From a virus: 29,193 bases of DNA. Shown piece by piece: positions 18,145 to 25,519 of the stretch; within the stretch, counting starts at the first letter, position 1; each line of letters begins with the position of its first letter. A program made the position numbers and the translations under genes. The stretch spans positions 1 through 29,193 of IMG/VR virus record IMGVR_UViG_3300037119_002282. One strand, given 5' to 3'. The notes below the pieces were generated by a model. The model was not told the DNA's origin. It saw only the letters and a list, made by a program, of their open reading frames with translations, and searched no databases.

Positions 18145-20193
18145 TTATCCACCCAGCGGTGGACCTTGACCGGCGGGTAGCCCAGGGAACGCGATCCCGC
18201 CGCCGGTCGGCGGGCCCTGTGGAACGGGCGGCGCCAGCGGCATCCCCTGTCCCGGCGCGGTCGGCATCCCGGCGCCGAGTTGACCGGGCGCCTCCGTGCT
18301 CATCAGTGGAGGAGCGCCGGGCGGCCCACCGACACCAGGAGGGAGCATCGACGGGTCCGACATCACGGGAGGAGGTCCGCCTGCCTCCGGGGGCGGCGGC
18401 AATGGTGGAGGCGCGAGGCCGGCCTCTTGCATCGCAGCCTGGACGATCGCGCGCTTGATCTCGGGGTTGGTCGCCATCTCGTCCTCGACCGCGATCTCGT
18501 CGGCCATGCCCTCGGGATCTTCGATGTTGGCCCACTGCTCCCGTGCGTAGCGGCTGGACACGAGCGGCTTGGGGGCGTTCGTGGCCTGGATGCCGAGCAT
18601 GACCCTGGCGGTTTCGTCGGTGGGGAGGACCGGCTTGTAGGTCCAGGTCAGCGGCCCGATATCCTCGACATCGACCTGATTGGTGTTCGAGGTGATGCCG
18701 GAGCCCATGCCGAGCCAGCGGTGCCCCTCGCCTTTACCGGACCCGGTGTCGAGCACGTAGACGGTCGATTTGATGCGGTGCTCGACCACCCACCAGATGA
18801 ACTCGCAGGCTTGCTCAAGCTGGCGCGAGGAGGCCAGCGCGATGCGGCGGTACATCGAAAGAGCGGCGGCGTACATCTGGTTGGCGAGGTAGCCCGAGTC
18901 GCCCGACATCGAGGAGCCGCGCAAAATACTCGGGATGCCGGCCACGTCGATCATGGCCCGGATAAGCTGGATCATGTCGTTGAGGTCTTTGCCGGTCGCG
19001 GGCGGCTCCAGGAACCGGATCGTCTTGCCGACCGGAAGCTCGATGGCTTTGCCCGGCTGCCACTTGAGCGAACTGGCCTGGTTGTCCTGGCCGAGCGGGT
19101 CGTCGAGCGTCCCGGCCGGGTTGGCGACGCTCTCGATGATCGGGTTCGGGTAGGCGCTCAAAAACGCCCAGTTCTCCTTCATCGTGATGAGCCGATCCAG
19201 CGCCGGGACCAGGAAGGCCAGCGAGTAGAGGATCGACTCCGAGTCGGAGTCGGCCTTGGCGCGGAAGTACGGTAATCTCGGGGCGAACGGGTTCGGCTTC
19301 GGGAACCCCGGCGCGAGTTCGCCGTCGATCACGACCGCCCAGCAGTCGGAATCCCAGTACTCCAGCTTGACGCTCATCCCCGAGCCCGATTGCCCGTAGC
19401 CCTGGGGCCTGGGGGTGCCGCCGAGCACCCGTTCGGGGTTGACGAGCTTGCCGTCCATGACCGGCATTTGGTACCGGGTCGAAAGATAGGGGCGTGGATA
19501 TTCCCCGTACTCCAACGCCCACGAATCGCCGTACTCACCGTCCCCGAACAGCATCTGGAGCCGATCGACGACTTTCCAGGAGAACGGGAGCGGGTTTTTC
19601 TTCTTGTACTTCTCGGCTCGGTCGGAGTAGTCCTCGGCGCCTTCGTCGGGGTAGCGGTCGGGGAACGTGGCCCAGGCGTCGGGCCGATGGACGACCTTGA
19701 TGACCGACTCGCCGTCGCGGATCAGGGCGCGCGGGGCCTCGTAGACCACGTCGTAGCCGAGTTCGCGCGTCAGCATCTCGCGCGCGGCGCTCGTCCACTT
19801 TTCGGCGGTGTTGGCGGCGTCCCTGGACTGAATCGTGTTGTCGAGCGGCTGGATGTGCGGAATCGGATCTTCGTGGGTGAGGGCGGCGGTGACGCGGTGC
19901 CAGGCGTCGCGCACGAAGGGGGTGCGGGTGACGTGCGAGATCGCTCGGTACTGGCGTGGGATCGAGACGCCGTGCTCCATCCGGGTGAGGGCGCGAAACG
20001 TCAGCGCCGTCGAACGGAGCTTGCGTTCGGAGAGTTCCGAGAGGCGGGCGTCGTAGAGCCCCTGGATCTCCGAGGCGGTGATCGGATAGGCGACCCCGGA
20101 ATCGGTCAGCCCACTGGACGGCAGCGGCGCGGCCTTAGATCGCCCGTTAGGGGGCGGTGACCCCCGTCCCGCCCCAGCCGCCCGAGTCGCCAA
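18145..20193 (-). CDS. portal protein
   Basis: The 682-residue product has the layout of a podovirus-like portal. It has an N-terminal helical domain with ITASEIQGLYDARLSELSER, then MEHGVSIPRQYRAISHVTRT, FVRDAWHRVTAAL, and a central wing/crown region with RALIRDGESVIKVVHRPDAW. A stem region follows with PALDRLITMKENWAFLSAYP and MIQLIRAMIDVAGIPSILRG. A long Pro/Gly/Met-rich C-terminal tail is present. The portal forms the dodecameric DNA channel at one capsid vertex and docks the terminase. The only standard upstream start is TTG 20193, with a GAGGTGGGG run at a rather long distance. The first 15 codons overlap a mini-ORF in another frame that looks more coding-like, so the start is uncertain. 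Terminase lies upstream, as is usual. Confidence 0.88.
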   Translation of the reverse strand: MATRAAGAGRGSPPPNGRSKAAPLPSSGLTDSGVAYPITASEIQGLYDARLSELSERKLRSTALTFRALTRMEHGVSIPRQYRAISHVTRTPFVRDAWHRVTAALTHEDPIPHIQPLDNTIQSRDAANTAEKWTSAAREMLTRELGYDVVYEAPRALIRDGESVIKVVHRPDAWATFPDRYPDEGAEDYSDRAEKYKKKNPLPFSWKVVDRLQMLFGDGEYGDSWALEYGEYPRPYLSTRYQMPVMDGKLVNPERVLGGTPRPQGYGQSGSGMSVKLEYWDSDCWAVVIDGELAPGFPKPNPFAPRLPYFRAKADSDSESILYSLAFLVPALDRLITMKENWAFLSAYPNPIIESVANPAGTLDDPLGQDNQASSLKWQPGKAIELPVGKTIRFLEPPATGKDLNDMIQLIRAMIDVAGIPSILRGSSMSGDSGYLANQMYAAALSMYRRIALASSRQLEQACEFIWWVVEHRIKSTVYVLDTGSGKGEGHRWLGMGSGITSNTNQVDVEDIGPLTWTYKPVLPTDETARVMLGIQATNAPKPLVSSRYAREQWANIEDPEGMADEIAVEDEMATNPEIKRAIVQAAMQEAGLAPPPLPPPPEAGGPPPVMSDPSMLPPGVGGPPGAPPLMSTEAPGQLGAGMPTAPGQGMPLAPPVPQGPPTGGGIAFPGLPAGQGPPLGG

Positions 20194-20242: not shown

Positions 20243-20638
20243 TTACACCTGACGAGAGTCGCGGCGAGGCCAGCGCGACCAGAAACGGCGTGCCCGCGTG
20301 GCCAGGCGCACGGCGTATTCATGGCCTTTTTGCGCCGAATCCCAGTCGGCGTAGCGTCGTTGCCACTCGTGCAGGCGGCTCGGGTCGCGGTCGGTTGTGC
20401 CGAAAATCATCGTCTCGAACAGGATCGGTGTGTGGTTACCGGTGAACATCCGGGTGAAGTTATGATCCAGTCCTAGGAACGCGGTCGAGACGCGCAGGGG
20501 ATCGTCGCCGTCGTCCAGGATCGTGTAGCCGACCCGGCGGCGGGTGTCGCGCATCGAGTCCTCGTACCAGGCCCCCCACACCAGCACGTCCGGGCAGGGC
20601 ACCGGGGTGTGGCCGTCCAGGATGTATTTATCGGTCAC
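20243..20638 (-). CDS. conserved phage protein of unknown function, 131 aa
   Basis: GTG 20638 overlaps the TGA of the preceding gene (GTGA). The product begins VTDKYILDGHTPVPCPDVLV and contains RRVGYTILDDGD, then RVSTAFLGLDHNF, then PILFETMIFG, and ends with a segment of the type RYADWDSAQKGHEYAVRLA. I recognise this order of motifs from a widespread family of small phage proteins of unknown function, often found near packaging or structural genes. The C-terminus is very basic (FWSRWPRRDSRQV). No catalytic motif is evident. Confidence 0.8.
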   Translation of the reverse strand: MTDKYILDGHTPVPCPDVLVWGAWYEDSMRDTRRRVGYTILDDGDDPLRVSTAFLGLDHNFTRMFTGNHTPILFETMIFGTTDRDPSRLHEWQRRYADWDSAQKGHEYAVRLATRARRFWSRWPRRDSRQV

Positions 20639-20934
20639 GGCGCAGACCGGGCCGCGTACCAGGCGCGTCGCTCGGCGCGATTCAGTCCGATCGGCGGGTG
20701 ATTGCGGCGGGACCAGTTGTCGCGCGCGCGCGTCGTCCAGACCCACTCGGCCATGAACGGGCTCGCCGTATCGGTGCGGCGCCCGAGAAACCAGTCGTCG
20801 CGCACGAACGCGACCGCGAGGTGCCCGAGCGGGGTGGTGACGTGGATACGCCCGAGCGGGGCACCGACAGCGCGATCGGTCGCGTCCAGGGCGCAGACGT
20901 GCAGCCCCCAGCGCCAGAACAGCCGGCGCCTCAC
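20635..20934 (-). CDS. small Trp/Arg-rich phage protein, 99 aa
   Basis: GTG 20934 overlaps the TGA of the membrane-protein gene (GTGA), and its own TGA overlaps the next GTG. All three genes are thus translationally chained. The product begins VRRRLFWRWGLHVCALDATD and has a central strand region with LGRIHVTTPLGHLAVAFVRD. It then has MAEWVWTTRARDNWSRRNHP and a final helix LNRAERRAWYAARSAP. It is basic and aromatic-rich, with no signal peptide. The family is not recognised. Longer readings of the frame upstream run antisense-like through the preceding gene and were not used. Confidence 0.7.
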   Translation of the reverse strand: MRRRLFWRWGLHVCALDATDRAVGAPLGRIHVTTPLGHLAVAFVRDDWFLGRRTDTASPFMAEWVWTTRARDNWSRRNHPPIGLNRAERRAWYAARSAP

Positions 20935-21358: not shown

Positions 21359-22771
21359 TTACCCTGCCGTGACCTCGAAGTCGATGACCCGAACGCCCCT
21401 GCTCCTGATCGAGCCGCCCATGACGCCGTACCTAAGGGTGTCGGCGGGGTGATCCTCGCCGTGGGTGTCCAGATCCTCGGTGACGTACTTGGAAAACTGT
21501 TGGACCGGCATCGTGCGAATCAGGTTCTTGCACGTCGAGAACACTTTCAGGCGCGGCTCGTTGTCCTCGTCCCAATGCAGATACCCCCGCAGGCGCTGCC
21601 AGCCGGACTTTCTATCGTTGTTGGCCGGAATGGTTCTCAGTCCCGCATCGAGGTACGCCTGCCCGATGGACTTGCCGTTGGGCTGTTTCGAGTAGATGCT
21701 CGGGTCGGCGGCGGTGAAGCGAATCGGCGGGTCGTTCTTGGATAACTCCAGGACGAGCCGGGCCTGATCGCGGTCGATGATTTTTTTCTCGTAGAGTTCG
21801 CGGTACACGTAGATCACGCCATCGTTGGAGCGCGCGAACCAGAGGCAACAGAACGGGGCCGCGAACCCGTAGTCCAAGGCTCGCCACCTCGGCCATGACC
21901 GGGGCAGATCGAACGGCCGGATCACGTGCTTCTCGGCGAACCACTCGTCGAAGAAGCCGCCGAGTTGTATGTCCCAACTTCCGAATAGCCAGGCGCGGCG
22001 TAAATACTCCGGCATGGCCATGATGCGCTTTCTGTAATCCGGGTCGTTGAGATCGAGCGCAGGGTTATCTTCGAGCCGGAACGGCACGAATATCGCCGGA
22101 AAGTCGCTTTCACCAATCCTAGCCTGAAACGGCGTTTCCGGGTCGGCGGTATCAACGAACGTGGTCTTGATCTCGTTGTGGCTCTCGCCGCCGGGGTTCG
22201 TGAGCAATAGGATGAACTTCGGGGTCGTCGGGTCGGGGCTCCGCACGCGCGCGTTGAGGAAGCAAATCTGTTCCCAGGTGAACTGCGTGGCCTCGTCGAA
22301 GATCAGGGCGCCGTACTCGGCCGACTGGTAGCCGATCAGGTCGGCGTTGCGCTCGACGGAACCTAGTTCCAGGATGCTCCCGTTGAGGAATCTGTACTCG
22401 TGTGGATCGAAATAGTATTTCCCGAAACTCGTGGGCAACTGGCTAATCGGTAACTCGTGCGTGCGGTGAAGCTCGGGATAGGTTCGCCGGAAGATCCCGA
22501 CCCGCATTCCTGGGTGCTTGAGACAGAGCGCGATGGCGAGATTTCGCCCGAGGGCCGACTTCCCTCCGCCGGCCGCACCGCCCGCCAGGATCGCGTAGTG
22601 CCCGGCGAGTACAGCGTCGATGACCGCCTGCTGCCTCGGAAACGGGCGCCACCCGATCCGCGCCCAGGTGTCCTCGAACTCGGGCGGCCTCCCCGAGGCT
22701 AAACTTGCCTGCTCCAGGCTCAGCGCCGCATGAATCAAATCCGCGTCGTAGCTCTGCAACCCGGATGGCAT
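21359..22771 (-). CDS. terL: terminase large subunit
   Basis: The 470-residue product has all parts of a phage packaging motor. The ATPase Walker A motif is GGAAGGGKS (64-72, Lys71) and Walker B is ALIFDE (155-160, Asp159 and catalytic Glu160). The coupling motif is LLLTNPGG (188-195). The RNase H-like nuclease domain has Asp300 in ALDYG, Asp356 in TAADPS and Asp444 in HPADTLRYG. It pumps DNA through the portal and cuts the concatemer. The length is normal for the family. It is the last gene of the operon that starts at 24163-24191, after the mini-gene array. No small terminase subunit was recognised next to it. Confidence 0.95.
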   Translation of the reverse strand: MPSGLQSYDADLIHAALSLEQASLASGRPPEFEDTWARIGWRPFPRQQAVIDAVLAGHYAILAGGAAGGGKSALGRNLAIALCLKHPGMRVGIFRRTYPELHRTHELPISQLPTSFGKYYFDPHEYRFLNGSILELGSVERNADLIGYQSAEYGALIFDEATQFTWEQICFLNARVRSPDPTTPKFILLLTNPGGESHNEIKTTFVDTADPETPFQARIGESDFPAIFVPFRLEDNPALDLNDPDYRKRIMAMPEYLRRAWLFGSWDIQLGGFFDEWFAEKHVIRPFDLPRSWPRWRALDYGFAAPFCCLWFARSNDGVIYVYRELYEKKIIDRDQARLVLELSKNDPPIRFTAADPSIYSKQPNGKSIGQAYLDAGLRTIPANNDRKSGWQRLRGYLHWDEDNEPRLKVFSTCKNLIRTMPVQQFSKYVTEDLDTHGEDHPADTLRYGVMGGSIRSRGVRVIDFEVTAG

Positions 22772-22809: not shown

Positions 22810-22974
22810 CTAGCGGTGGATCATCCTGAAAAACGCCTCGGGTACGCGTGCGAAGAACATCCAGGCCGGTATGCGATCCGCCCCGAGCGCCGCAGCCGCA
22901 CGCCAGAAACCCCACATCCGGGCGTCGTCCCAGCCCGGGGCCAGCCGAGCGATAGGCAGGAGCGTGAGTTTCAC
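22810..22974 (-). CDS. array mini-protein K (VKLT family), 54 aa
   Basis: GTG 22974 overlaps the TGA of the gene before it (GTGA). The product starts VKLTLLPIARLAPGWDDARM, continues with WGFWRAAAALGADRIPAW and ends in FFRMIHR. It has four Trp and the [WY]xxW core WGFW at residues 21-24. It is the last small gene before terminase, with a 38-base gap. It belongs by start sequence, size and aromatic core to the tandem mini-gene family seen at 22810-24954. There is no signal peptide. A short strand followed by an amphipathic helix is likely. The function is unknown. Confidence 0.65.
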   Translation of the reverse strand: MKLTLLPIARLAPGWDDARMWGFWRAAAALGADRIPAWMFFARVPEAFFRMIHR

Positions 22975-23138
22975 CGGCGCAGCCTGGCGTGGGCTGCGGC
23001 GCGCGGCCCACGGCTGAGGCGCCAGTGTTTCCAGATCAAGCGCCACGCATGCGATGCCGTCACGAACGCCCCCCAGCCGCGATTGGTATCCTCGAACACG
23101 AGCGACAGCCGGTTCACGCGCATCGGCGTCAGTTCCAC
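22971..23138 (-). CDS. array mini-protein J (VELTPM start), 55 aa
   Basis: The chosen start is GTG 23138, inside the end of the preceding gene (10-base overlap), giving VELTPMRVNRLSLVFEDTNR. The ATG at residue 6 is an alternative. The start resembles that of gene B (MRLTPMHAHR), which shares LTPM and Arg10-Leu11. The middle has WRLIWKHW, including the [WY]xxW core WKHW (36-39). The C-terminus is Arg/Ala-rich. It has four Trp in 55 residues. I see no known domain. The overlap with both neighbours points to translational coupling in the array operon. Confidence 0.6.
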   Translation of the reverse strand: MELTPMRVNRLSLVFEDTNRGWGAFVTASHAWRLIWKHWRLSRGPRAAAHARLRR

Positions 23139-23296
23139 GGCGTCGGCTCGCGCTCTTTCAAGAGCGCCTCGATCAGACTCCACTGAGCCCAGGACTGGCC
23201 GCAGTCGCCGAACGCGACCGCCCGGTACAGACTCCAGCCGCTTTTCTTGGACGGCGGGATCGCCTCGACGCCAACCCTAGCCGGGGTCAGTTTCAC
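23129..23296 (-). CDS. array mini-protein I (VKLT family), 55 aa
   Basis: GTG 23296 overlaps the preceding TGA (GTGA). The product starts VKLTPARVGVEAIPPSKKSG and contains AFGDCGQSWAQWSLIEALLK. The segment DCGxx[YW]xxW (31-39) aligns without gaps with the same pattern in mini-protein F (20-28), which is direct evidence that these small genes are paralogues. It has four Trp. The last helix, SLIEALLKERE, is amphipathic. No known family is recognised. It lies in the middle of the operon between promoter 24163-24191 and terminase. Confidence 0.68.
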   Translation of the reverse strand: MKLTPARVGVEAIPPSKKSGWSLYRAVAFGDCGQSWAQWSLIEALLKEREPTPWN

Positions 23297-23433
23297 CGGC
23301 CGAGCCGCGTGAGGATCGCGTCCCGAAACTCCCGCTGCCGTGGAAACGACCGCCACGGCCAGCGGAACCAAAGCACGATCGCCGGCGACGGCACCACCAG
23401 CGGCAGGTGCCGGATCGCGCGGGTGAGTTTCAC
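23293..23433 (-). CDS. array mini-protein H (VKLT family), 46 aa
   Basis: GTG 23433 overlaps the preceding TGA (GTGA). The product starts VKLTRAIRHLPLVVPSPAIV and continues with LWFRWPWRSFPRQREFRDAI. The [WY]xxW core is WFRW (22-25), followed by a third Trp. It is strongly basic. A hydrophobic stretch at about 10-22 is too short and interrupted by Pro to be a sure membrane helix. It has the same length as its neighbour G and ends with a similar amphipathic helix. The function is unknown. Confidence 0.62.
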   Translation of the reverse strand: MKLTRAIRHLPLVVPSPAIVLWFRWPWRSFPRQREFRDAILTRLGR

Positions 23434-23570
23434 CGCGCAAGCCAGTCGTCGAACGCGCGGGTGAGCCCCCCCGGCCGGTGGAACCAGGGGGACCCCCCAA
23501 ACGACCAGAGCCACCAGAGATACACCGGTGGGTGCGGCGTGCTCGCGACGCGCAGCCGCACGAGTTTCAC
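23430..23570 (-). CDS. array mini-protein G (VKLV), 46 aa
   Basis: GTG 23570 overlaps the preceding TGA (GTGA). The product starts VKLVRLRVASTPHPPVYLWW and continues LWSFGGSPWFHRPGGLTRAF to its end DDWLAR. It has five Trp in 46 residues, including the [WY]xxW core at 19-22. The fourth residue is Val instead of Thr, but the nucleotide start GTGAAACTC is unchanged. It belongs to the tandem family by start, length and aromatic core. No known domain was found. Confidence 0.62.
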   Translation of the reverse strand: MKLVRLRVASTPHPPVYLWWLWSFGGSPWFHRPGGLTRAFDDWLAR

Positions 23571-23731
23571 CGGGGTCGCTCGACCAGATGCCGCTGGAGA
23601 ATATCGTCGATCTGGTGCGGCAGGAGCGCGAGCGGCCAGCGGCGGCGCCACGTCTGGTATTGCGCCCCGCAATCCCGAAACTGGAGCGACACCGGCTGCA
23701 CGAGCAGTGTCAATTGGAGCGTGAGTTTCAC
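23567..23731 (-). CDS. array mini-protein F (VKLT family), 54 aa
   Basis: GTG 23731 overlaps the TGA of gene E (GTGA). The product starts VKLTLQLTLLVQPVSLQFRD and continues CGAQYQTWRRRWPLALLPHQ. It has the pattern Y25-xx-W28-x-R30-x-W32, found at identical positions in mini-protein C, and the DCG segment shared with I. It therefore links the upstream and downstream halves of the array. The N-terminal part looks like two beta strands; the rest is a basic amphipathic helix. The function is unknown. Confidence 0.68.
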   Translation of the reverse strand: MKLTLQLTLLVQPVSLQFRDCGAQYQTWRRRWPLALLPHQIDDILQRHLVERPR

Positions 23732-24015
23732 GCGATCTTCCCCACGACCCGCACGATCGACTTGTTCTTGAAGCTCGGCCCCCAGCGCAAGAACTGGATC
23801 GCGAGGTCCACGTCCTTGGCGGCGGCCCGCAGGATCGCGCGCCGACCCGAGGCCGACTTCGGATCGGTCTTGCCGCCCCACTCGATGATCGCGTAGTGGT
23901 TCTTGACCGCCGCCCCGGTGAGCGCCTCGCGGAGCGGGGCACGCTCCTCGTAGCGCCGGTTGCGCTGCGGGGTCGTGATGATCGGTCGGGCCGGCACGAA
24001 CTTCCACTCGGGCAC
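23728..24015 (-). CDS. small phage protein, first gene of second array operon, 95 aa
   Basis: GTG 24015 is preceded by AAGGAG at 8 bases, so I start here although the frame is open further upstream to a GTG at 24147. The product starts VPEWKFVPARPIITTPQRNR and has NHYAIIEWGGKTDPKSASGR, then AAAKDVDLAIQFLRWGPSFK, then KSIVRVVGKIA. It reads as an alpha/beta domain ending in a strand. It lacks the VKLT start and the WxxW core, so it is probably not a member of the mini-gene family. Its TGA overlaps the GTG of mini-gene F. The leader from promoter 24163-24191 to this start is about 140 bases. Confidence 0.68.
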   Translation of the reverse strand: MPEWKFVPARPIITTPQRNRRYEERAPLREALTGAAVKNHYAIIEWGGKTDPKSASGRRAILRAAAKDVDLAIQFLRWGPSFKNKSIVRVVGKIA

Positions 24016-24162
24016 GAATCTGGCTCCTTGCCTAACCAGAAAGCCCGCTCCCGACCAGGACACGCCGAGGCGAGCACGGATATGCGCTGCGCGATTCGCA
24101 CGCCTCCGGCGCTGTGCGCTCGGGAACAGAGCACTCATCCTCGGCACGGGGTATGCACGCGA

Positions 24163-24191
24163 AGTCTACGGCTCGCGCGCGCGCGTGTCAA
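24163..24191 (-). promoter_or_regulatory. sigma70-like promoter of the second mini-gene/terminase operon
   Basis: TTGACA (24191-24186, perfect) is followed by 17 bases and then TAGACT (24168-24163) on the minus strand. The spacer contains an alternating C-G run of 12 bases, which can favour left-handed DNA or unusual melting. The predicted start is near 24156. It would drive genes E to K and terminase. Confidence 0.65.
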
Positions 24192-24250
24192 TCATCTCGG
24201 CGCCGATTGCATGAGTTTTTCCTCACGAGAACACCCCAAAAGAGCGCGGT

Positions 24251-24268
24251 GATGAAGAAATCTTCATC
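24251..24268. promoter_or_regulatory. candidate operator palindrome
   Basis: GATGAAGA and TCTTCATC (8-base arms) flank a 2-base centre. The size fits a dimeric XRE-type repressor site. It lies about 60 bases upstream of the promoter at 24163-24191 and in the non-coding gap between the two halves of the array. The surrounding 24016-24368 stretch holds this site, the promoter, a hairpin and the 5' leader of gene E; no further gene could be supported in it. Confidence 0.4.
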
Positions 24269-24307
24269 CTTGAGGATCGTCGGTCGGGTATTCTCGGGGC
24301 GTCGCGC

Positions 24308-24351
24308 GGGAACGCCGACTCGCGGTTGGACCCCCCACTGTCGGCGTTCCC
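24308..24351 (-). terminator. 12-bp hairpin after mini-gene D
   Basis: GGGAACGCCGAC (24308-24319) and GTCGGCGTTCCC (24340-24351) are perfect complements around a 20-base loop. It starts 18 bases after the stop of mini-gene D on the minus strand and could end the regulator operon. No U-run follows, so factor-dependent termination or an RNA-processing role is also possible. Confidence 0.4.
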
Positions 24352-24368
24352 CGCCGCGCGGCGCGGTG

Positions 24369-24617
24369 TTACCGGTCGAGGGCGTCCATGTACAGGACGC
24401 GATTGCCCCCTGGCAGATCGGGTGTGTCGATCAGCAGGTCCAGCCACGCGGTCGAGGTGGCTTTGCGCCAGTCCACGCGCGAGTCGTCCAGGTCCACGCT
24501 GGCGAAATACCCGACCGACACACGCCCCGTCCGGCTCAACCGCGTCCACAGGCGCTGCGAGATCGGCGTCGCGGCGCGGGCGTCCTGGCAGAGCCGGCCG
24601 AGGGAGGTCAGTTTCAC
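24369..24617 (-). CDS. array mini-protein D (VKLT family), 82 aa
   Basis: GTG 24617 overlaps the TGA of mini-gene C (GTGA). It is the longest array member. It starts VKLTSLGRLCQDARAATPIS, has RLWTRLSRTGRVSVGYFASV and DLDDSRVDWRKATSTAWLDL, and ends in GGNRVLYMDALDR. It has three Trp but no clean [WY]xxW core. The middle reads as beta strands, so it may be a family member with an added domain or an unrelated protein that shares the start. It is the last gene of the regulator operon before the hairpin at 24308-24351. Confidence 0.65.
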   Translation of the reverse strand: MKLTSLGRLCQDARAATPISQRLWTRLSRTGRVSVGYFASVDLDDSRVDWRKATSTAWLDLLIDTPDLPGGNRVLYMDALDR

Positions 24618-24808
24618 TCGGTGTCCCGTCGCAGCAGCTTGTGGACCATGATCGGGTCGGTGATCTGGTAGGCCCCGAGCACCTCGTGCAGGACCGATAG
24701 CGCGGTCTGGTTCCAGGACCGAACCCAGGCCGAGTAGTTCGCCTGGAGCATCGGAATCCGCCCGGTCGAGGGCGTGTGGCCGGCCGGCAGAATCACGGTG
24801 AGTTTCAC
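24614..24808 (-). CDS. array mini-protein C (VKLT family), 64 aa
   Basis: GTG 24808 overlaps the TGA of mini-gene B (GTGA). The product starts VKLTVILPAGHTPSTGRIPM and continues LQANYSAWVRSWNQTALSVL. The pattern Y25-xx-W28-x-R30-x-W32 is identical in position to mini-protein F. After it comes an amphipathic helix (ALSVLHEVLGAY) and a basic end. The LPAG segment near residue 8 resembles LPGG in the VRLT protein at 28185. No known domain was found; the function is unknown. Confidence 0.68.
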   Translation of the reverse strand: MKLTVILPAGHTPSTGRIPMLQANYSAWVRSWNQTALSVLHEVLGAYQITDPIMVHKLLRRDTE

Positions 24809-24954
24809 CGCCAGATGCCGCGCGACACGCCGTCCCACACGTCCCAGACGAAATGGACCCCCCAACTGATCCACCAGACGTGGGGCACATGCTCCGGTGT
24901 CTCACGGTTCAGGTGCCAGCCGAGTCGGTGCGCGTGCATCGGCGTCAGCCGCAT
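24805..24954 (-). CDS. array mini-protein B (MRLTPM start), 49 aa, very Trp-rich
   Basis: ATG 24954 lies 4 bases after the TGA of the regulator gene. The product starts MRLTPMHAHRLGWHLNRETP and continues EHVPHVWWISWGVHFVWDVW to its end DGVSRGIWR. Seven of 49 residues are Trp, including WDVW (37-40). Its opening codons share a 13-base block with gene J (CTGACGCCGATGC), which supports a common origin. The high Trp and His content is unusual for a cytosolic protein of this size. The family is not known. Confidence 0.62.
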   Translation of the reverse strand: MRLTPMHAHRLGWHLNRETPEHVPHVWWISWGVHFVWDVWDGVSRGIWR

Positions 24955-24958
24955 GCGC

Positions 24959-25222
24959 TCAGGGCGCCTCGGGGTCGCCGTCGCGGAAACACGCCAGCCA
25001 GGCCGGATCGACTTCCAGCGCCTCGGCCAGCACCCGCACGGTCGTGACCTTGGCGTTGAAGTCCTGGCGCTCCAGCCGCAAGAGCGACACGCGCTCGAAG
25101 TAGTGCCCGCGCGCGATCACGCGCCGCGCCAACTCGGCTTGGGTGAGCCCGCGCTTCAACCGCATCTCGCGGACGCGCACGCCGGGGTGCAGGAAGGTCC
25201 GAGGAGCGGGAGTCGTCACCAC
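24959..25222 (-). CDS. XRE/Cro-type helix-turn-helix regulator
   Basis: The product has a helix-turn-helix of the Cro/C1 type: VRVREMRLKRGLTQAELARR, then VSLLRLERQDFNAKVTTVRV, then LAEALEVDPAWLACF. This is the five-helix fold that binds DNA as a dimer. The frame is open to TTG 25276, but that codon lies upstream of the likely transcript start. I therefore use GTG 25222 (87 residues), which follows GGAGG at 11 bases; a GTG at 25219 is also possible. It stands at the divergent switch between the leftward and rightward arms and heads the operon with mini-genes B to D. A role in controlling the arms or the second array promoter is an inference. Confidence 0.85.
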   Translation of the reverse strand: MVTTPAPRTFLHPGVRVREMRLKRGLTQAELARRVIARGHYFERVSLLRLERQDFNAKVTTVRVLAEALEVDPAWLACFRDGDPEAP

Positions 25223-25264
25223 GGTCGCCTGATCCTCCGCTTGCGGTTTGGTTGCTGGTGGACT

Positions 25265-25293
25265 ATTGTACGTCAATCAGCCGGCGGCTGCAA
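25265..25293 (-). promoter_or_regulatory. promoter of the regulator operon
   Basis: TACAAT (25270-25265, five of six matches) is preceded by 17 bases and then TTGCAG (25293-25288, weak -35) on the minus strand. The predicted start near 25258 gives a leader of about 36 bases to GTG 25222. A weak -35 is typical of a regulated phage promoter. Confidence 0.45.
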
Positions 25294-25330
25294 GCAGCGG
25301 GGTGCCGGACGAAATCTCCAGAAAGAAGGC

Positions 25331-25366
25331 GAGCCGGCGACCCCCTACCACAAGGGTCGCCGGCTC
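25331..25366. terminator. 13-bp perfect hairpin in divergent intergenic region
   Basis: GAGCCGGCGACCC (25331-25343) and GGGTCGCCGGCTC (25354-25366) pair around a 10-base loop. Read on the minus strand it is followed by CGCCTTCTTTC, a weak pyrimidine tract. It may insulate the two arms, or be a structured leader or operator. The rest of 25294-25438 holds no supported gene, and no clear rightward promoter was found. Confidence 0.5.
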
Positions 25367-25438
25367 TGTTGACCCGCCACCGCGAAATTAGTGGACCCCC
25401 CGGTGACGGGTTCGTACCCCGGATAAGGAGGCAGGACC

Positions 25439-25519
25439 ATCTTACACACCATTAGCACCATTCGTCAAGGTGCAGTCCGCGCCGTATCGGCGTTTCATAA
25501 GAACGCGACATCATCGTGA
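25439..25519 (+). CDS. possible 26-codon leader ORF with ATC start
   Basis: A very good ribosome-binding site AAGGAGG (25425-25431) stands 7 bases before ATC 25439. Read as initiator Met, the ORF gives MLHTISTIRQGAVRAVSAFH and ends at TGA 25519. That TGA overlaps the GTG start of the DnaB N-terminal-domain gene (GTGA), which itself lacks a ribosome-binding site. The layout suggests a leader that couples translation to the next gene. Against it, third positions are not GC-rich and ATC is a very poor start codon. Confidence 0.35.
   Translation: MLHTISTIRQGAVRAVSAFHKNATSS

Follow-up and report, generated by a model that had tools for sequence, protein, structure and literature searches.

Bacteriophages commonly carry runs of small orphan genes. 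Here we describe an array of nine tryptophan-rich mini-genes, designated B, C, D and F through K, on the minus strand of IMG/VR record IMGVR_UViG_3300037119_002282, a linear record of 29,193 bases from an uncultured virus of bacteria; the whole of this stretch was analysed and is referred to below as the window. The array of nine is real and unusual. An earlier reading of the sequence alone (the original prediction) had claimed nine open reading frames (ORFs) of 46 to 82 residues here, and all are present with the lengths, starts and positions given there. They are listed together with gene E, which lies between D and F.

24805..24954, minus strand: mini-gene B, 49 residues including 7 Trp, ATG start (MRLTPM...), GC content at third codon positions (GC3) 0.86
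24614..24808, minus strand: mini-gene C, 64 residues, start GTGAAACTCAC
24369..24617, minus strand: mini-gene D, 82 residues, start GTGAAACTGAC, the sole member without [WY]xxW
23728..24147, minus strand: gene E, about 139 residues, basic, without the shared start
23567..23731, minus strand: mini-gene F, 54 residues, start GTGAAACTCAC
23430..23570, minus strand: mini-gene G, 46 residues, start GTGAAACTCGT (VKLV)
23293..23433, minus strand: mini-gene H, 46 residues, start GTGAAACTCAC
23129..23296, minus strand: mini-gene I, 55 residues, start GTGAAACTGAC
22971..23138, minus strand: mini-gene J, 55 residues, start GTGGAACTGAC, overlapping I by 10 nucleotides
22810..22974, minus strand: mini-gene K, 54 residues, start GTGAAACTCAC

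Four-nucleotide NTGA stop-start overlaps join B/C, C/D, E/F, F/G, G/H, H/I and J/K. The I/J junction is the only one within a block to depart from this length, so that the co-directed genes are linked by seven overlaps of 4 nucleotides and one of 10, the arrangement expected under translational coupling. GC3 ranges from 0.80 to 0.89 in all nine mini-gene frames and matches that of the real genes of this phage; on this codon-position signal the nine ORFs are very probably genes. Gene E has two candidate starts (GTG at 24147 or ATG at 24138), and its product has no match in Pfam or PHROG.

The mini-genes begin with a sharply bounded block of 12 nucleotides, GTGAAACTSAC(S), that makes up codons 1 to 4; in translation all nine start with [V/M][K/E/R]L[T/V], as had been predicted. 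Six exact copies of GTGAAACTSAC occur in the 29 kb, all on the minus strand and all at start codons of the array, with none elsewhere, making the block an asymmetric repeat of single orientation tied to starts. Eight of the nine mini-genes carry it with at most two mismatches (one in J and two in G), the exception being B (ATGCGGCTGAC). It is absent from the starts of the neighbouring genes. When the sequences are aligned at their starts, conservation covers positions 0 to 11 and is at background on both sides. Variation within the block falls mainly on the wobble positions of codons 3 and 4 (C5/G4 and G5/C4), and Leu and Thr are present in 9/9 and 8/9 members, respectively; third positions free between C and G, which is what Leu and Thr codons would show in a GC-rich genome, argue beside such constant residues for an amino-acid constraint. 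The Lys codon is AAA in 7/7 cases versus 44/191 (23%) in the structural genes (binomial, ~3e-5), which argues for a nucleotide constraint at the start. We therefore read the block as being under two constraints, one on GTGAAA that is probably related to initiation and one on the amino acids Leu-Thr.

Counting AAACTCAC alone, besides the CTGAC variants, four ORFs in the window begin identically at an NTGA overlap. Elsewhere, at most three such ORFs occur per locus among 385 sequences (3.29 Mb), a non-random set made up of the window together with loci from phages and genomes, part of which had been retrieved through the start motif itself. The block is common to the mini-genes far beyond chance, so they are not random filler. 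A start hairpin (GUGA-AAC-UCAC) was rejected as a conserved property, being feasible only in the CTCAC copies and not in the CTGAC copies. In another phage (L024, 12452-12807), two adjacent overlapping paralogues have MKLTAEARAKAR exactly in common and then diverge, a parallel on a small scale.

The protein bodies were compared with the first four residues removed, giving 36 pairs, for which P values are reported before correction. Local alignment singled out F/I (P = 0.002), G/H (P = 0.012) and C/F (P = 0.018). In global alignment, 0/400 shuffles were as high as the observed total, and 0/400 as high as C/F, the best pair for C; a repeat of the global comparison gave a z of 3.3 against full shuffles. 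In an ungapped, start-anchored comparison P was 0.016 when scored by BLOSUM and 0.087 when scored by identity. For B/J the result is borderline (P = 0.055), with 43% aligned identity in a two-sequence alignment. The residue correspondences named in the original prediction were all recovered: Y25, W28, R30 and W32 in F and C; DCGxx[YW]xxW in F and I, the DCGxxWxxW block of I being common to F; and LTPM and R10 in J and B. The [WY]xxW core was likewise found in eight of the nine proteins, as claimed, where 2.26 are expected (P = 0.0002 tested alone). Among spacings of 0 to 8 only 2 is enriched, and the global P becomes 0.155 once all residue-class pairs and gaps are allowed, as in a motif hunt. 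From these comparisons, common descent of some pairs is likely, and that of all nine is plausible.

Net charge is +2 to +8 in eight of the mini-proteins and +1 in B. Only J and K were folded, each from a single sequence and with low to moderate confidence: J is predicted to be mostly one long helix (residues 5-43; mean predicted local distance difference test [pLDDT] 79), and K to form three helices (mean pLDDT 66). Both are thus predicted to be helical, with different layouts; as single-sequence models at these pLDDT values, the two folds are not comparable.

In the leftward direction the gene order is a helix-turn-helix (HTH) regulator, B, C, D, a gap, E, F through K, the large terminase and three small genes. 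Farther left are a large gene in portal position and then the virion genes, among them one for a major head protein and one with an internal-virion-protein/transglycosylase match. The replication genes are on the opposite strand, beyond the HTH regulator. The features flanking and controlling the array are as follows.

24959..25276, minus strand: HTH_3 regulator gene (Pfam HTH_3, E 5e-7; PHROG regulators), directly upstream of B
21359..22771, minus strand: terminase large subunit gene, 38% to Arthrobacter phage terminases by tblastn, downstream of the array
24163..24191, minus strand: sigma-70-like promoter TTGACA-17-TAGACT, 10/12 in a consensus scan, just upstream of E
24308..24351, unstranded: perfect 12-bp inverted repeat with a 20-nucleotide loop, in the D-E gap (control region)

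Two sigma-70-like sites were found in the scanned region versus 0.3 expected, and the consensus scan detected no promoter-like site between E and the terminase. Because a sigma-70-like promoter stands directly upstream of E, transcription of E-F-G-H-I-J-K may run into the terminase gene. The inverted repeat at 24308..24351 was not called as a terminator. The minus-strand motif GGGGGGTCC occurs four times in the window (23490-23498, 24328-24336, 24855-24863 and 25393-25401), all on one strand and within the 1.9-kb array region, with about one copy expected in the whole window. Two copies are in intergenic control regions, one of them inside the D-E hairpin loop, and the other two are intragenic in different frames; the motif is possibly a binding site. 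A strong terminator-like hairpin with 15 pairs and a T-rich tail (25331-25366, minus strand) sits between a promoter-like site at 25468-25439 and the HTH gene start; it could act as an attenuator or mark where a short RNA ends. The gene in the usual portal position (18145-20193, minus strand; 682 residues) matched nothing in the phage collection, in Pfam or in PHROGs, and for this reason the phage looks like a distant lineage. A 167-residue gene after the terminase (20243-20746, minus strand) has a relative of 40% identity at positions 103-366, the end of contig locus L026; that a VKLT-like iteron stretch (GTGAAACTGACCCAC) is found on the same contig is probably a coincidence.

Relatives of the array were sought in several collections. 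The mini-proteins have no Pfam or PHROG match at E<0.01, Rfam gave no match, and the HTH regulator matches only generic HTH families. Searches by tblastn with J alone and with all ten proteins together found no homologue of the array in 50,697 phage records, and tblastn of J found none in plasmid records. In IMG/VR, no relative of the array was found with the terminase or J as single queries or with the B+J and G+H alignments, and paired start-block patterns found none in IMG/VR or in 84,980 genomes. The terminase search of genomes found no locus with the array; terminase-related loci found with terminase profiles peak at about 40% identity, and all are without it. These negatives are limited, since records very near the window may be absent from the collections and proteins this short are hard to confirm by tblastn; absence of relatives is for those reasons not proof. 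Matches to the start-block patterns were coincidences or other things, among them the iteron stretch in L026, the L024 pair, and VKLT repeats in L325 and L387.

Several known systems resemble parts of this arrangement. Closest among published phenomena are the start-associated sequences of Cluster K mycobacteriophages, which are also short asymmetric repeats in one orientation, at the starts of non-structural genes in one part of the genome (PMC3203893). There, however, a 13-bp sequence (GGGATAGGAGCCC) containing the Shine-Dalgarno core lies 3-7 bp upstream of the starts of genes of different families (PMC3203893), whereas the present block begins at the start codon and is coding, and most of its starts lack a Shine-Dalgarno signal. 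No AGGAG repeat directly upstream of the start, as in Cluster K, is seen here: the block occupies positions 0 to +11, upstream positions are near background, and anti-Shine-Dalgarno energies are random-like. The block could nevertheless act in a way similar to the Cluster K element. The stoperators of Cluster A mycobacteriophages are repeated asymmetric sites, mostly in one orientation relative to transcription, that go with a phage-encoded DNA-binding regulator (PMC6550527, PMC9283540); here, in contrast, all copies are in frame at starts and none is in a control region, no copy being found in 24148-24368 or 25277-25515 even with two mismatches.

Anti-CRISPR and anti-defence loci likewise pair short orphan proteins with a neighbouring HTH gene (PMC6739104, PMC11065993). 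Here, in contrast, no known anti-defence family was matched, and part of the array is apparently transcribed with the terminase. As to a known anti-defence protein or an anti-CRISPR-associated (Aca) regulator, the Pfam and PHROG searches, both of generic libraries, gave no match at E<0.01 for the mini-proteins and generic HTH families alone for the regulator. Gene pairs coupled by termination-reinitiation have the same 4-nucleotide stop-start overlaps between co-directed genes (PMC6728339, PMC10666635); the present array differs in its runs of several overlapping mini-genes, its near-identical four-codon start and its weak or absent Shine-Dalgarno signal.

We tentatively favour, at a little short of even chances, the view that the nine belong to one old, lineage-specific and strongly diverged family, owed at least in part to duplication, whose accessory members are translated in a chain and play a role in host interaction. 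A ribosome would stop at the TGA of one gene and restart, without a Shine-Dalgarno site, at the overlapping GTG of the next. GTG-AAA-CTS-ACS would be kept both for restart (GTGAAA) and as a constrained N-terminus (Leu-Thr). In published reporter experiments, coupling of overlapping genes is the rule, and Shine-Dalgarno sequences range from dispensable to essential (PMC6728339); such coupling, with a need for Shine-Dalgarno that depends on the gene, has been documented in Escherichia coli and Haloferax (PMC6728339, PMC10666635). We infer stop-start coupling here, with the block as the putative restart site, from the overlaps within blocks and the weak Shine-Dalgarno signal. Ahead of the nine starts, the predicted pairing with the anti-Shine-Dalgarno sequence has a mean of -3.07 kcal/mol, versus -3.06 kcal/mol at random positions, and it is -8 to -11 kcal/mol for several other genes of this phage. 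Small and Trp-rich, mostly basic and probably helical, the products would bind host proteins or membranes during infection, in counter-defence or takeover; this functional step is rather doubtful. A host-interaction role is what one usually expects of orphan phage mini-proteins adjoining a regulator.

A number of results weigh against such a family. The all-pairs local-alignment total is not in excess (P = 0.18), and with position-preserving shuffles (within thirds or blocks of ten) the global similarity drops to z values of 2.0 and 1.6 (P = 0.03-0.06). Small proteins of Arthrobacter phage Zartrosa, taken as 40 control sets of nine, give a mean z of 0.89, and two of the sets reach the z of 2.85 of the array. 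Conservation ends sharply after codon 4, which is not the pattern that plain descent gives, D is without the [WY]xxW core, and no mini-gene homologue was found in any of the collections searched. The original prediction had explained the array by repeated duplication rather than filler. The start block and the nominal pairs C/F, G/H and F/I bear this out in part, and the sharp end of conservation, the reduced z values and the equalling controls leave a duplication origin of all nine no more than plausible. On the functional side, amphipathicity is not clearly in excess (mean z 0.58 versus shuffles) and no stretch resembles a membrane helix; on both counts membrane-active amphipathic peptides were rejected as a positive claim, the hydrophobic moment being not clearly above that of shuffles. 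The place of F through K on the apparent terminase transcript points to late rather than immediate-early expression, which weakens counter-defence. None of the roles first proposed (anti-defence or host-interaction peptides, or a packaging-linked complex) has homology behind it.

The same 12 nucleotides could instead be a DNA or RNA signal, for translation initiation or for the binding of a phage or host factor, placed on small genes that are partly or mostly unrelated in their bodies, with the Trp core a product of composition and of choosing the motif after the fact. We consider this a real possibility, though one we would not expect to prevail: the sharp boundary at codon 4 fits it, as does a family signal that, without the start, is marginal against both the small proteins of another phage and a motif hunt, and published start elements do occur on genes of different families (PMC3203893). 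Those elements, however, contain AGGAG and precede the start, whereas this block is itself part of the reading frame, with most of its variation at the third positions of codons 3 and 4; the similarity of C/F, G/H and F/I and the spacing of [WY]xxW would also be left unexplained. A broader proposal, which we hold to be improbable, is a modular cassette system at the head of the late operon, in which the block would serve as Shine-Dalgarno-free restart site, as an N-terminal KLT tag common to nearly all products and as short homology for the gain, loss and diversification of mini-genes.

Lower still stands the suggestion that the nine are subunits of one fixed-ratio complex, possibly linked to packaging. 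Overlaps are enriched among subunits of complexes (PMC10666635), the array precedes the terminase, where the small terminase subunit often sits, and no small terminase gene was recognised nearby, but no homology to any packaging protein was found, gene E or one of the three genes after the terminase could equally be the small subunit, and three members of the array belong to the regulator block, upstream of the control region; we regard this as quite unlikely. About as unlikely is a putative operator, in which GTGAAACTSAC would be a binding site of the neighbouring HTH regulator that stands at starts by chance. Its single orientation relative to transcription, shared with the predominantly one-way stoperators (PMC6550527), its confinement to one region and the adjacent HTH gene suit an operator; its absence from the two intergenic control regions where one would be expected, the exact frame register of each copy and the wobble variation do not. 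That the ORFs are chance frames misannotated as genes is extremely improbable: GC-rich DNA does produce many long open frames in all six frames, but the codon-position signal of these nine agrees with that of genuine genes of the phage, and their starts are exactly where the start block recurs.

In the literature and sequences searched, we found no other array that keeps a near-exact coding start block, and nothing else, while the bodies of its genes diverge. If the block drives restart without a Shine-Dalgarno site, the array would be a compact test case for stop-start coupling along a gene chain. Should the bodies be paralogues, it would represent the in-place diversification of a set of host-interaction genes.

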